From NCBI GenBank assembly GCA_005881595.1, contig VBBY01000066.1:1-49599 (forward strand): a DNA stretch of 49,599 bases. The letters run 5' to 3'. Position 1 is the first letter of the stretch. Every line of letters begins with the position of its first letter. The DNA is from Betaproteobacteria bacterium (lineage in GTDB: Bacteria > Pseudomonadota > Gammaproteobacteria > Burkholderiales > SG8-39). The translations under genes were made by a program, and so were the position numbers. Shown piece by piece: positions 21,728-46,982 of this stretch. The notes beneath the pieces were generated by a model. It was not told where the DNA came from. It did not search any database and saw only the letters and a program-made list of their open reading frames with translations.

Positions 21728-23092
21728 CTAGCCGGCGACCTGCTTGATGCGGGCGATCATCTCGTCGACCGCTTTCTCCACCGGCCACTTGTCGGTGACG
21801 ACGCGGTTCATCGCCTTGGCCCACACGTTCTCGTTGTTGAGGATGGTGAACTTGTAGTTCCTGGTGAACTCGAAGGTCACCGTCCCGGCCGAGAACTGGT
21901 CGTGAACCACCTTGCGGTGCGGGTCCTCGGTCCAGTACTTGCGCGCGGCGGCCGCTTTGGTCACCGGGTACCAGCGCCCGAGCGCGCCCTCGACGTACGG
22001 CGTCAGGTTCTCGTCGCGCATCAGGAAGGCGACGAACTCCTTGCCGCGCTTCTTGTTGCGCGCGCTGTCGAAGATCACCCCCACCTTGACCGCGGCGCGG
22101 TACTGCATCGGCTTGCCGTCGGGCTTGTTCGGAAAGCCGGCGGTGGCGATCAGCTCGTAGTAGTTCTTCTTCGCCTGCTCGCGCTCCTCCGGCTTGAGCT
22201 TGTCGTTGTTCGAGTCGTCGAGCCACTTCGAGGCGATCGAGATGGTCGCGTTGTGCGTCATCATGATCGTCTTGTTGTGGAAGTTGACGTTGTTGTCCGG
22301 GTCCTTCCAGTTGATGGCGGAGGGCGGCGTGCAGCCCTTGCCGATGGTCTCGGTGTAGTCGCCTAGCGCTCCGACCAGCCCCTTCCTCACTTCGGGACGA
22401 TCGACGAGCAGCTTGCCGTCGTCGTCGACCAGCTTGACGTTGTACGCGTCCATGTAGGTCAGGAACGAGTAGAACGAGTCGCTCGAGTCGACGCCCATCG
22501 GGCTGCCGACCGAGTAGACGCGCTTGCCGGTTTTCTTGCGGTAGCCGCTCTGCGCCTTGTCGCACCAGAAGGCAAAGTAGCCTTTCCAGTCCTTCGGGAT
22601 GTCGGATTCCCTGAAGCCCGCCTCCTGCAGCATGTCCTTCCAGTACTGGATGTGCATCGTCTGCCGCTTCACCGGGAACGCGTAGTAGGCGCGCTTCTTC
22701 GCCTTGTCGTTCCACATGTAGGTGGTCTCGAGCGTGTTGGGCAGGAACTGGCTTTTCATCGGCAGCAGGATGTCAGACAGGTCCTCGAGCCGGCCCTCGT
22801 ACGCCCACTTGCCGGCGACCTGGAAGTCGAACACGTCGCCGTAGACGACGTCGGGCGGAGTGCCCGAGTCGAGCGCCGCGACTGTCTTCGGGATCATCTC
22901 CTGCGGAGCGTAGCGCGACAGCTCCACCTTCACGCCGGTCTTCTTCTGGAACTTGTCGACCACCTCGTCGAGCGCCTTGTCTTCCGCCGGGTAGAACCCC
23001 TTGGCGAAGTACACGACCAGCGTTTCCTGCGCGGCCGCGGGCCAGGCAAACGCGGCGGACAGCAAAGCGGCTGTCAGCAATCTGAAAGGCAT
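21728..23092 (-). CDS. extracellular solute-binding protein, family 1 (sugar-type ABC importer)
   Basis: Periplasmic receptor of 454 residues. A classical signal peptide (MPFRLLTAALLSAAFAWPAAA, cleaved near AAAQ) is followed by a mature domain starting ETLVVYFAKGFYPAEDKALDEVV, and includes GTPPDVVYGD and the family-1 C-terminal lobe. The ATG at 23092 has a good ribosome-binding site (AGGAGG), so the longer frame that reads back through two hairpin repeats is not used. It is the first gene of the importer operon. The family binds sugars, polyols or related molecules; the ligand is not identifiable here. Confidence 0.9.
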   Translation of the reverse strand: MPFRLLTAALLSAAFAWPAAAQETLVVYFAKGFYPAEDKALDEVVDKFQKKTGVKVELSRYAPQEMIPKTVAALDSGTPPDVVYGDVFDFQVAGKWAYEGRLEDLSDILLPMKSQFLPNTLETTYMWNDKAKKRAYYAFPVKRQTMHIQYWKDMLQEAGFRESDIPKDWKGYFAFWCDKAQSGYRKKTGKRVYSVGSPMGVDSSDSFYSFLTYMDAYNVKLVDDDGKLLVDRPEVRKGLVGALGDYTETIGKGCTPPSAINWKDPDNNVNFHNKTIMMTHNATISIASKWLDDSNNDKLKPEEREQAKKNYYELIATAGFPNKPDGKPMQYRAAVKVGVIFDSARNKKRGKEFVAFLMRDENLTPYVEGALGRWYPVTKAAAARKYWTEDPHRKVVHDQFSAGTVTFEFTRNYKFTILNNENVWAKAMNRVVTDKWPVEKAVDEMIARIKQVAG

Positions 23093-23134
23093 TGCGGGCT
23101 CCTCCTCTAAGTAGCCGCTTTCATGATAACCAAT

Positions 23135-23181
23135 AAATGGGGACAGACCCCATTTTAAATAAATGGGGTCTGTCCCCATTT
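23135..23181. repeat. inverted pair of palindromic repeats
   Basis: Two copies of the 21-bp hairpin in opposite orientation: AAATGGGG-ACAGA-CCCCATTT at 23135-23155 and AAATGGGG-TCTGT-CCCCATTT at 23161-23181, separated by 5 bp of A/T. The pair as a whole is also self-complementary. It touches the stop codon of the RraA-like gene at 23182 and lies 43 bp upstream of the binding-protein start, so it may end the upstream transcript. The arrangement recalls BIME-type REP pairs. Confidence 0.85.
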
Positions 23182-23889
23182 TCATTTTGCTTTCTTCTTC
23201 CACGCTTCGAACTCGGCCCGCGTTTTTTCATCCGGCGGGTAGAGCCCGAAGATCGAGCGTCCTTCCTTCACCTTGGCTTCGACCCAGTCCTCGAACTCGG
23301 TCTGCTTGGCGGCTTCGGCGGCCACCTCGTCGGCGATCTTCGCCGGGATCACCACCACGCCCTCGGCGTCGCCGACCACCACGTCGCCCGGATAGACCGG
23401 CACGCCGCCGCAGCCGATCGGGACCTGGCTGTCGATCGCGTGGTGGCGCACCAGGTTGAGCGGCGCCGAGCGCGCGCCGCAGTAGACCGGGAAGTCGAGC
23501 TTCTCGATGGTCGGCGTGTCGCGCAGCCCGCCGTCGGTGACGATGCCCGCGGCGCCGCGCACCATGAGGCGCGTGATCAGGATGTCGCCGCCGGTGGCCG
23601 CGGTCGCGTCGCGCCGCGCGTCCATCACCAGCACTTGCCCGGGCGGGCAGGCCTCGATCGCCTCGCGCTGCGGATGGCCGCGGCCCTCGAAGGCGCCGAG
23701 CTGGTCGAGGTCCTCGCGCGCCGGGATGTAGCGCAGCGTGTAGGCCTCGCCGACCATGCGCGGAGCTTCCTTGTTCAGAAGAAAGACGTTCTGGATAAAC
23801 GCGTTGCGAAAGCCGCGCTTGAACAGCACCGTGGTGAGCGTGGCGGCGGAAACCTTCTTCAGCGCCTCCCGGCTATGAGATGAGAGCAT
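23182..23889 (-). CDS. RraA-family protein (HMG/CHA aldolase-like)
   Basis: A 235-residue member of the RraA/4-hydroxy-4-methyl-2-oxoglutarate aldolase family. It has LVMDARRDATAATGGDILITRL, the conserved GAAGIVTDGGLRDTPTI with the substrate-binding Arg and metal-binding Asp, and VPVYPGDVVVGDAEGVVVIP. Members either cleave 4-hydroxy-2-oxo acids to pyruvate or bind RNase E; the extended C-terminus and operon context favour a metabolic enzyme. The ATG at 23889 has GGAG at about -10. A long inverted repeat separates it from the M14 peptidase gene, and a hairpin pair lies at its end. Confidence 0.85.
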   Translation of the reverse strand: MLSSHSREALKKVSAATLTTVLFKRGFRNAFIQNVFLLNKEAPRMVGEAYTLRYIPAREDLDQLGAFEGRGHPQREAIEACPPGQVLVMDARRDATAATGGDILITRLMVRGAAGIVTDGGLRDTPTIEKLDFPVYCGARSAPLNLVRHHAIDSQVPIGCGGVPVYPGDVVVGDAEGVVVIPAKIADEVAAEAAKQTEFEDWVEAKVKEGRSIFGLYPPDEKTRAEFEAWKKKAK

Positions 23890-23901
23890 GAGTAGTCTCC
23901 A

Positions 23902-23928
23902 CTAGGATTCGACCGCGATCTCCTTGAG
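23902..23928 (-). other. relic copy of the M14 peptidase gene end
   Basis: Read on the minus strand this stretch encodes LKEIAVES followed by a TAG stop, nearly the same as the end of the adjacent M14 peptidase gene (VKEIAVEA and TAA). A perfect 14-bp direct repeat (ACCGCGATCTCCTT on the plus strand) occurs at 23912-23925 and 24003-24016. It looks like the original gene end, displaced when the 66-bp palindrome between the two copies arrived. Confidence 0.7.
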
Positions 23929-23992
23929 AATTCGGGGACGGAGCCCTAACTCCGAAGCTGCGCGTAGGTGGAGTTAGGGCTCCGTCCCCGAA

Positions 23993-23994
<2 letters not shown>
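23929..23994. repeat. 66-bp long inverted repeat (mobile-element-like)
   Basis: Perfect 25-bp arms (beginning AATTCGGGGACGGAGCCC) flank a 16-bp loop. It is bordered by 14-bp direct repeats that duplicate the end of the M14 peptidase gene, the arrangement expected after insertion with target duplication. The M14 stop codon at 23993-23995 overlaps the right arm. As RNA it would form a very stable hairpin that may terminate the transcript or protect its end. Its core GGGGACGGAGCCC is related to the shorter hairpins in this window. Confidence 0.9.
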
Positions 23995-25665
<1,671 letters not shown>

Positions 25666-25669
<4 letters not shown>

Positions 25670-36170: not shown

Positions 36171-38266
36171 CGGCCGCGGTGATCGCGACGCTTGCGCTGT
36201 TCCTCGTTGCCGCGGCCTGGATCTACAACCGCCTGGTCGCCGAGCGCAACCAGGCGCGCCAGGGCTTCGCCGACATCGACGTGCAGCTCAAGCGCCGCGC
36301 CGACCTGGTGCCGCAGCTCGTCGAGGCCGTGCGCGGCTACGCCGCCTACGAAAAGGCGCTGCTCACGAGCGTGACCGAGCTGCGCGCGAGCGCCGCCGGC
36401 GCCGGAGCGCTCGCCGAGCGCTTCGGCCACGAGCGCGCGCTCGGCGAGAGCCTGAAGAAGCTGCTGCTCTTGCAGGAGAGCTACCCGCAGCTCAAGGCCG
36501 ACGCGAATTTCCGCAAGCTTTCGGACGAGCTGGTCGAGGTCGAGGACCACCTGCAGTACGCGCGCCGCTTCTACAACGGCGCAGCCGGTACGGGTTTCGT
36601 TTTGAAGCTTCTACTATTCCTTGCATTGGCCTTTCCCGTTCATGCGGCAGAAAGAATCCTTGACTTCCACAGCAGCATCCGCATCGACAGGGATGGGACT
36701 CTGACGGTCACCGAGAGGATCGAAGTGCAGGCCGAGGGCAGCCAGATCCGCCGCGGCATCCTGCGCGACTTCCCGACCGGCTACAGCGGCGCGCTCGGCG
36801 CGAGAGCGCGCGTGCCTTTCCGCGTGATCGGCGTGACGCGCGACGGCCGGAGCGAGCACTACGCCGTGGAGCGCCTCGCGAACGGCGAGCGCATCCGCAT
36901 CGGCAGCGCCGACGCGATGCTCTCTCCCGGCCGGCACGTCTACGAGATCACCTATCGCACTTCGCGCCAGCTCGGCTTCTTCAGCGACCACGACGAGCTG
37001 TACTGGAACGTGAACGGCAACGGCTGGACGTTTGCCTTCGACCGGCTCTCGGCCGAGGTCCGGCTGCCGGCGCCGGTGCCGGCGGGCGCGCTCAGGCTCG
37101 CGGCGTACACCGGGCTGCAGGGCTCGCGCGGCTCGAGCTACGAGGTGTTCGCGCGCGAGGGCGGCGCCGCGTTCCGCGCCACGCGCGCGTTCGCCCCGCG
37201 CGAGGGGATGACGATCGTGGTGGGCTTCCCGAAAGGCGTCGTCGCGCAGCCCTCGCTTGCCGCGCGCGCCGGCTGGTGGCTCTCGGCCAACGCCGGCGCC
37301 GTCGCCGCGCTTCTCGGCTTCGCGCTCCTCTTCGCCTTTCTTTATTGGCGCTGGTGGCTGGTCGGCGTCGATCCGCAGCCCGGGCCGAGATTCCCGCGCT
37401 ACGAGCCGCCGCCGGGCCTGGGGCCGGGCGCAGTGCGCTACCTCGACCGGATGGGCTTCGACAACAAGTGCTTCGCCGCGGCGCTGCTCGACCTGGGCGC
37501 GCGCGGCTTCCTGAAGATCCGCGAGCACGGCGGGGTGTACGACATCGAGCGCACGGGGAGAGAGGTCGAGTGGCTCCCGGGCGAGAAGCCGATCTCCGAC
37601 ATGCTGCTCGCGCCCGGCCACCCGGTCACCATCGGCAAGGAGTACAGCCCGGGCGTGCAGAGAACGCGCGAGCTGTGCGAGCGCATGCTGGCGCTGCACT
37701 TCGGCGAGAAGTTCTTCAGCCGCAACCTCGGCTCGTTCATCACCGGCGCGGTCATCGCGGTGGCTTTCTGCGTGCTGGGACTCGTCCTCGAGGCGCCGGC
37801 AGCGGTGCTGGTCGTCGTCGTGGGGGCCATGGCGCTGACGCTGCTCCTTTTCTGGCGGCTGCTGCCGGCCTACTCGGTGCCGGGAAGAAAGCTGCAGGAC
37901 GAGATCGACGGCCTGCGCCAGTACCTCAGCGTCGCCGAGGCCGACACGCTCAGGCGCATGAAGGCGCCGCCGCAGACGGCCAGCGAATTCGCCCGGTTCC
38001 TGCCGTACGCGGTCGCCCTCGGCGTGGAAAAGACCTGGGCCGAGCGCTTCTCGGCGACCCTCGGCAGCGCGGCCGTGGCCGCGGCGGTCTCCTACTATTA
38101 CCAGTCGGATTCCTTCGGCGGCGGGAGCAGCTTCTCAGGCTTCGGCGATTCGTTCTCCGATCTGAGCAACACCGTCGCCTCGGCCTCCACCGCGCCCGGC
38201 AGCAGCTCGGCCGGCGGCGGCTCCTCGGGCGGCGGCGGCGGCGGAGGCGGCGGCAGCGGCTGGTAA
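36167..38266 (+). CDS. LemA-DUF2207 fusion protein
   Basis: A single 699-residue frame joining two families usually encoded by neighbouring genes. Residues 1-138 are LemA-like (N-terminal helix 4-20, NQARQGFADIDVQLKRRADLVPQLVEAV, LQYARRFYNGA) but stop where LemA would continue with about 40 more residues. Residues 146-160 (LKLLLFLALAFPVHA) look like the signal peptide of a DUF2207 protein, whose conserved N-terminal domain follows (ERILDFHSSIRIDRDGTLTVTERIEV), then membrane helices and a Gly/Ser-rich tail. A TTG at 36602 could start DUF2207 separately, but it has no visible ribosome-binding site. The junction is AT-rich. Confidence 0.85.
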   Translation: MTAAVIATLALFLVAAAWIYNRLVAERNQARQGFADIDVQLKRRADLVPQLVEAVRGYAAYEKALLTSVTELRASAAGAGALAERFGHERALGESLKKLLLLQESYPQLKADANFRKLSDELVEVEDHLQYARRFYNGAAGTGFVLKLLLFLALAFPVHAAERILDFHSSIRIDRDGTLTVTERIEVQAEGSQIRRGILRDFPTGYSGALGARARVPFRVIGVTRDGRSEHYAVERLANGERIRIGSADAMLSPGRHVYEITYRTSRQLGFFSDHDELYWNVNGNGWTFAFDRLSAEVRLPAPVPAGALRLAAYTGLQGSRGSSYEVFAREGGAAFRATRAFAPREGMTIVVGFPKGVVAQPSLAARAGWWLSANAGAVAALLGFALLFAFLYWRWWLVGVDPQPGPRFPRYEPPPGLGPGAVRYLDRMGFDNKCFAAALLDLGARGFLKIREHGGVYDIERTGREVEWLPGEKPISDMLLAPGHPVTIGKEYSPGVQRTRELCERMLALHFGEKFFSRNLGSFITGAVIAVAFCVLGLVLEAPAAVLVVVVGAMALTLLLFWRLLPAYSVPGRKLQDEIDGLRQYLSVAEADTLRRMKAPPQTASEFARFLPYAVALGVEKTWAERFSATLGSAAVAAAVSYYYQSDSFGGGSSFSGFGDSFSDLSNTVASASTAPGSSSAGGGSSGGGGGGGGGSGW

Positions 38267-38310
38267 AATCAGGGACAGACCACGATTAAATCGGGGTCAG
38301 AGCCCGGTTT
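38266..38310. repeat. two adjacent palindromic repeats of different type
   Basis: A GGGACAGACCACG-type copy (38266-38287) directly joined to a degenerate GGGGTCAGA-type copy (38288-38310, right arm GCCCGGTTT). They begin within the stop codon of the LemA-DUF2207 gene and end 23 bp before arfB. Two members of the family side by side suggest insertion of one into or beside another. Confidence 0.7.
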
Positions 38311-46938: not shown

Positions 46939-46982
46939 AAATTGGGGTCAGACCCCGATGAAAATGGGGTCTGTCCCCATTT
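46939..46982. repeat. two different palindromic repeats side by side
   Basis: AAATTGGGGTCAGACCCCGAT (46939-46959, GGGGTCAGACCCC type) and AAATGGGG-TCTGT-CCCCATTT (46962-46982), separated by 2 bp. They occupy the whole gap between the MBL-fold gene and the ATG at 46983. The first may terminate the upstream gene; the second lies exactly where the ribosome-binding site of the next gene should be. Confidence 0.85.

Follow-up and report, generated by a model that had tools for sequence, protein, structure and literature searches.

A REPIN-like palindrome flush with the stop codon of an M14 peptidase gene, and the copied gene end beside it, in a betaproteobacterial genome

The window, i.e. the whole analysed stretch of 49,599 nucleotides from a Betaproteobacteria bacterium, contains a 66-bp palindrome at the very end of an M14 peptidase gene, with a second copy of that gene end on its far side. 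The palindrome is likely to be a non-autonomous dimer of the REPIN or TIR kind that was moved by a Y1 HUH transposase encoded in the same genome, the duplicated gene end being a by-product of insertion or repair. The gene of this transposase has copies of the same repeat on both sides, and its product would spread the element. Insertion exactly at the M14 stop would have done little damage, the terminal AA of the element completing the TAA codon. The mRNA would then have a strong hairpin immediately after the M14 stop and ahead of rraA, with a probable effect on termination, decay or ribosome release at this site. The additional copy of the final ~23 bases of M14 beyond the element may have originated from staggered ends that were filled in during insertion or break repair.

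The palindrome and its repeat family

The element (23929-23994, without strand) consists of two inverted GGGGACGGAGCCC repeats and a 16-nt loop (23954-23969), as defined by arm comparison, folding and its other copies. Each arm (23929-23953 and 23970-23994) has 25 nt, and the two are 100% complementary, which bears out the 66-bp palindrome with perfect 25-bp arms described in the initial annotation. When the element alone is folded as single-stranded DNA, a z of -9.9 is obtained (versus 200 shuffles); RNA folding of the element with its flanks gives z = -6.3. A known structured RNA was rejected as its identity, as no Rfam family reached the gathering score in 23000-24500.

Other copies of the element, for which a search had been proposed, are indeed present. 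The window's own genome (3.79 Mb, 257 contigs) yields 17 matches, among which near-full copies stand at four other places, on contigs C44 (96% identity), C106 (96%), C128 (92%) and C243 (89%). The five full copies have the same inner 20 nt in every arm but different loops. Slight variation is seen in the outer 5 nt of the arms, with AGTTC/ACTTC at C243 and a single end base differing at C106. Exact GGGGACRGASCCC sites number 31 in this genome versus 1 for the reversed control pattern, and can be subdivided into 13 GGGGACGGAGCCC, 17 GGGGACAGACCCC and 1 GGGGACGGACCCC. The motif is present in 10 of 11 genomes of the genus, the own genome included.

Some of these repeats have particular surroundings. 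The C243 copy (C243:25513-25569, locus L005) lies at a new gene junction, where the transporter-like gene on the left is shortened relative to relative G009 (the one genome used for this left-side comparison) and ends at a TAA inside the repeat. In the window, GGGGTCAGACCCC-class repeats are found at 46944-46978 and 47315, and the one at 46944 pairs with a GGGGACAGACCCC repeat.

The M14 gene end and its copy

The M14 zinc carboxypeptidase gene occupies 23993-25669 on the minus strand (Pfam, with the start codon picked by reading). Its assignment as an M14 peptidase, made earlier from the sequence, is confirmed by Pfam PF00246 (E = 2.7e-32). The stop codon TAA (23993-23995, minus strand, by sequence reading) is shared with the element: the outermost base of a 25-nt arm (23994) serves as its second base, the first A, and the next arm base (23993) as its last A, so that the two outermost element bases (AA) complete the stop. 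Downstream of the element lies an RraA-like gene (23182-23889, minus strand, Pfam). The TGA stop of this gene likewise adjoins a repeat pair, namely a second inverted pair of class GGGGACAGACCCC (23139-23177, without strand, from sequence and motif search) that is flush with it.

The two gene-end copies on either side of the palindrome, KEIAVEA-stop and KEIAVES-stop, were correctly recognized in the initial annotation. The direct repeat (23903-23925 versus 23994-24016) is identical at 20 of 23 bases, with 3 differences, and its longest perfect stretch is the 14-mer ACCGCGATCTCCTT. By sequence reading, the gene-proximal copy (KEIAVEA-TAA, 23994-24016, minus strand) is the true M14 end, while the distal copy (KEIAVES-TAG, 23903-23925, minus strand) lies between the element and rraA and is presumably non-coding. 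Both contain one extra codon before the stop (GCC or TCC) that is absent from the four relatives, so that the copy most likely arose within this lineage. The window arms show 0 internal mismatches, and the loop and the duplication about 3 differing positions each, which gives no order of age between duplication and element.

The same gene was compared in relatives from the genus. M14 has one gene end in G008, without a repeat after it; one in G010, followed by a different hairpin-like sequence (GGGGTCAGGCACC, a candidate repeat); and one in G003, which adjoins the same repeat class as in the window. In G009 the gene end also adjoins this class, and the contig stops inside the repeat, leaving the far side unseen. 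A second gene end within 300 nt downstream was detected only in the window (score 15.5, versus 6.5 in G003, 7.0 in G010 and 7.0 in G008), with just 26 nt available for scanning in G009. The position of the M14 stop is conserved within about a codon among the relatives; thus, the repeats sit at the native stop. At the end of a G003 contig (L037, G003:C318, 10106-10183), a short second M14-like fragment lies past the full gene and may represent a duplication or an assembly effect. An empty site had been suggested as a check on the insertion. The three readable relatives (G003, G008 and G010) do provide the single gene end expected of it, but an empty site with this M14-rraA junction was not encountered, the junction being absent from all relatives examined.

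The junction occurs in the window's genome and in none of the other loci examined (4 for M14 and 8 for rraA). As it is new among the genomes examined, a rearrangement may be involved, which counts against the main reading. Ectopic recombination between repeat copies could have joined M14 to rraA, in which case the distal copy would represent the terminus of another M14-like gene. In the relatives, rraA indeed has a different gene on its 5' side (resembling enoyl-CoA hydratase or gyrB/parE, named by reading), and the shortened C243 gene points in the same direction. This course of events is nonetheless quite improbable. Each of the 5 genus genomes having any M14 match at E <= 1e-60 has a single one, and six further genus genomes, most of them incomplete, have none at that threshold. 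The 8 rraA loci likewise lack any M14 match; L033, one of them, extends only about 50 nt upstream of rraA. The search of the genus genomes and the rraA loci gave no second M14 gene from which the distal copy could derive. As for the neighboring genes, no close homologue of the rraA neighbor of G009 was detected in the window's genome (96.6% complete; best match 36% identity). Downstream of M14 in G010 lies a Tat-signal gene, which matches the own-genome contigs C100 (70%) and C203 (60%), and a crude motif scan revealed no repeat pair at these two loci.

Whether such duplications are typical of the family can be judged from 33 dimers with both flanks readable (8 in the own genome and 25 in relatives). 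A flank repeat that scores above all swapped pairings was observed in 2 of the 33, i.e. in the window, where the flank match outscores every swapped flank pairing among these dimers, and at C106:2352. The duplicated AAAATCGGGCTCTGA at C106:2352 resembles part of another repeat class (by reading), and support for a duplication at this site is weak, although it is counted. A search for an empty site of the C106 region gave none, its hits being largely to repeats, plus a few short matches in relatives. The family as a whole thus lacks the constant target duplication by which a DDE-type MITE would be recognized. Mobilization of a classical MITE by a DDE transposase, with a long (~23 bp) target duplication as its trace, would explain why the 23-bp duplication closely flanks the element on both sides and why its terminal inverted repeats are perfect. 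It is highly improbable, however, given the remaining 31 dimers without such a flank repeat and the Y1 transposase gene that is bracketed by the repeat. The element is rather a miniature element of the RAYT/TIRYT kind. The proposal of an insertion with target duplication therefore holds in part: the miniature element is dispersed and three relatives have a single gene end, but the duplication is atypical. The latter is real but exceptional, and we infer that it is a by-product of insertion or break repair and not a regular signature of the family. No Y1 mechanism is known to explain it, which counts against the main reading.

Smaller duplications are found at the feet of other repeats. Tandem copies of 9-23 nt of the repeat foot are present at 8 of 122 ends versus 9 of 2,220 control positions, and they are concentrated in the own genome (6/31 ends versus 2/91 elsewhere, Fisher p = 0.003). 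Tandem copies of 15-16 nt, comprising flank and first repeat bases, can be seen at C32:2528, C106:2352, C106:4921, C110:4917 and C128:25730 (L084, L090, L092, L096 and L100, respectively). Nicking and fill-in at the repeats could account for the window duplication and these foot duplications, as could hairpin slippage or problems with the assembly.

Replication slippage or template switching at the hairpin may have duplicated the gene end before or after the insertion and independently of transposition, and is tentatively retained as a possible origin. The tandem foot copies of 12-16 nt at other sites of this genome, and their excess over the controls, fit such a process. The foot copies, however, lie head to tail beside one repeat end, whereas the window element lies between its copies, for which two template jumps would be needed. 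Moreover, one of the eight foot cases is a stack of whole repeats (L146) and two are short or weak (9/9 at L130 and 11/12 at window 17976).

The concentration of foot duplications in a single genome would also agree with an assembly chimera, in which a strain haplotype with the element (KEIAVEA) was joined to one without it (KEIAVES). Some of the genus relatives are Betaproteobacteria metagenome assemblies, and the own genome is split over many contigs. A chimera is nevertheless unlikely, as 3 differences in 23 positions is high for strains of one species and the shared perfect stretch of 14 bp is shorter than usual assembly overlaps.

More speculatively, the HUH (Y1) hairpin element might integrate with staggered ends in this lineage, leaving duplications of 15-23 bp; this is rather doubtful. 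The element would then stand between the duplications (window, perhaps C106) or would have left bare tandem footprints (C32, C106, C110, C128). This enzyme class is not known to make target duplications. If true, the staggered ends would imply target duplication by a Y1/HUH enzyme, in addition to insertion flush at stops. More generally, the flank and foot duplications, if real, offer a handle on how such elements integrate.

Repeat ends at stop codons

The position of the M14 element is not an isolated case. Among the 122 distinct repeat ends sampled in the genus, 29 follow the stop of a gene-like frame at a distance of 2-6 nt; such frames were called by length and codon-position G+C and not by annotation. 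The corresponding control rates are 459/108,025 for intergenic-like positions (0.42%) and 726/372,470 overall (0.19%). Twelve repeat ends are located at exactly 3 nt from the stop, where the stop codon is completed by the outer bases of the repeat. Flush ends are distributed over the own genome (6/31), G003 (9/25), G009 (9/34) and G006 (3/16), with 0/13 in G001, G005, G008 and G010 combined and 2/3 in ends without an assigned genome. At 72 of the 122 ends there is no gene-like stop within 60 nt, an observation that counts against the main reading. At another locus (L161, G003:C59, about 984-1019), a dimer fills the entire gap between two convergent gene-like frames and is flush with both stops.

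This placement is striking but has precedent. The REPs of E. coli near stop codons were reportedly first studied by Liang et al. According to an excerpt of PMC12306157, these repeats are found no more than 15 nt from stop codons and give rise to hairpins in the mRNA. The repeats described here resemble them in lying close behind stops and in their predicted mRNA hairpins; they differ in that many of them directly adjoin the stop and contribute bases to the stop codon itself. GTAG REPs have been reported to supply a TAG stop (excerpt of PMC3733652). The present family provides an example of hairpins that occupy gene ends by completing stop codons.

Y1 transposase genes and related systems

The own genome contains three Y1_Tnp genes, on contigs C96, C110 and C172, and inverted repeats bracket all three, with a different repeat class for each gene. 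The C96 gene (Pfam Y1_Tnp, 46.5 bits versus a cut-off of 23) is bracketed by the same repeat as the window element: one window-class repeat lies 40 nt before its start, and its 3' end is overlapped by one exact and one variant inverted copy. For the C110 gene, GGGGACAGACCCC is found upstream and an inverted near-copy inside the last codons; the two same-orientation repeats near this gene are both upstream. The C172 gene (L011, repeats at about 1405-1430 and 2200-2225) has CAGGGACAGACCACG upstream and its inverse at the gene end. A sequence similar to this CAGGGACAGACCACG is also present in the window at about 38266-38283, adjoining a GGGGTCAGAGCCC repeat.

The HVH motif and the Pfam Y1_Tnp match identify the Y1 HUH catalytic domain in the transposases. 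In NCBIfam, the REP-associated tyrosine transposase is the sole match for all three proteins, yet each scores below the 80-bit cut-off of this RAYT model (NF047646; 59.4, 71.5 and 61.4), which counts against the main reading. No helix-turn-helix family was detected at the C-terminus of any of the three by Pfam at E up to 1, a search whose filters drop most weak matches.

Among the closest known systems are the REPINs that accompany RAYT genes (Bertels and Rainey 2011, PMC3116915, in excerpt). The window family shares with them the two inverted short palindromic repeats with a spacer, which are dispersed in multiple copies and form a hairpin, as well as the Y1 transposase gene bracketed by the repeat, as seen at C96. 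It differs in its small number of copies (8 own-genome dimers with readable flanks) and in the lack of a GTAG tag; the window copy differs further by its flanking duplication. GTAG is absent from the arms of the five full copies, its one occurrence being in the loop of the window copy, and this absence, too, counts against the main reading. Beyond the AATTC end, 0 of seven flank columns are constant.

TIRtrons, whose transposases are termed TIRYTs, are RAYT-like genes flanked by inverted repeats, some of which share GGGGWSAS (Di Nocera et al. 2013, PMC3733652, in excerpt). Their TIR repeats also occur as dispersed dimers and may overlap the 3' end of the gene, as the repeats do here at C96, C110 and C172. 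The second-class GGGGACAG of C110 fits GGGGWSAS exactly, the window-class GGGGACGG of C96 is off at one base, and the C172 repeat has AGGGACAG. As excerpted, PMC6006769 places 20 of the 26 described in PMC3733652 in its subclass 2.1, its match to RAYT group 1, of which a C-terminal helix-turn-helix is a feature; the transposases of the window's genome differ in having none that is detected by Pfam.

With the IS200/IS605 family, the system has the Y1 HUH catalytic domain in common, the associated enzyme being of this wider kind. The window element differs in carrying no gene and in its 23-bp duplication, whereas that family makes no larger target duplications according to an excerpt of PMC2817692. 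Overall, an uncultured Betaproteobacteria genus here contributes new repeat/transposase pairs to a little-studied RAYT branch, with inverted repeats and without GTAG. The kind of element is already known, and what is unusual in comparison is only the copied gene end beside it.
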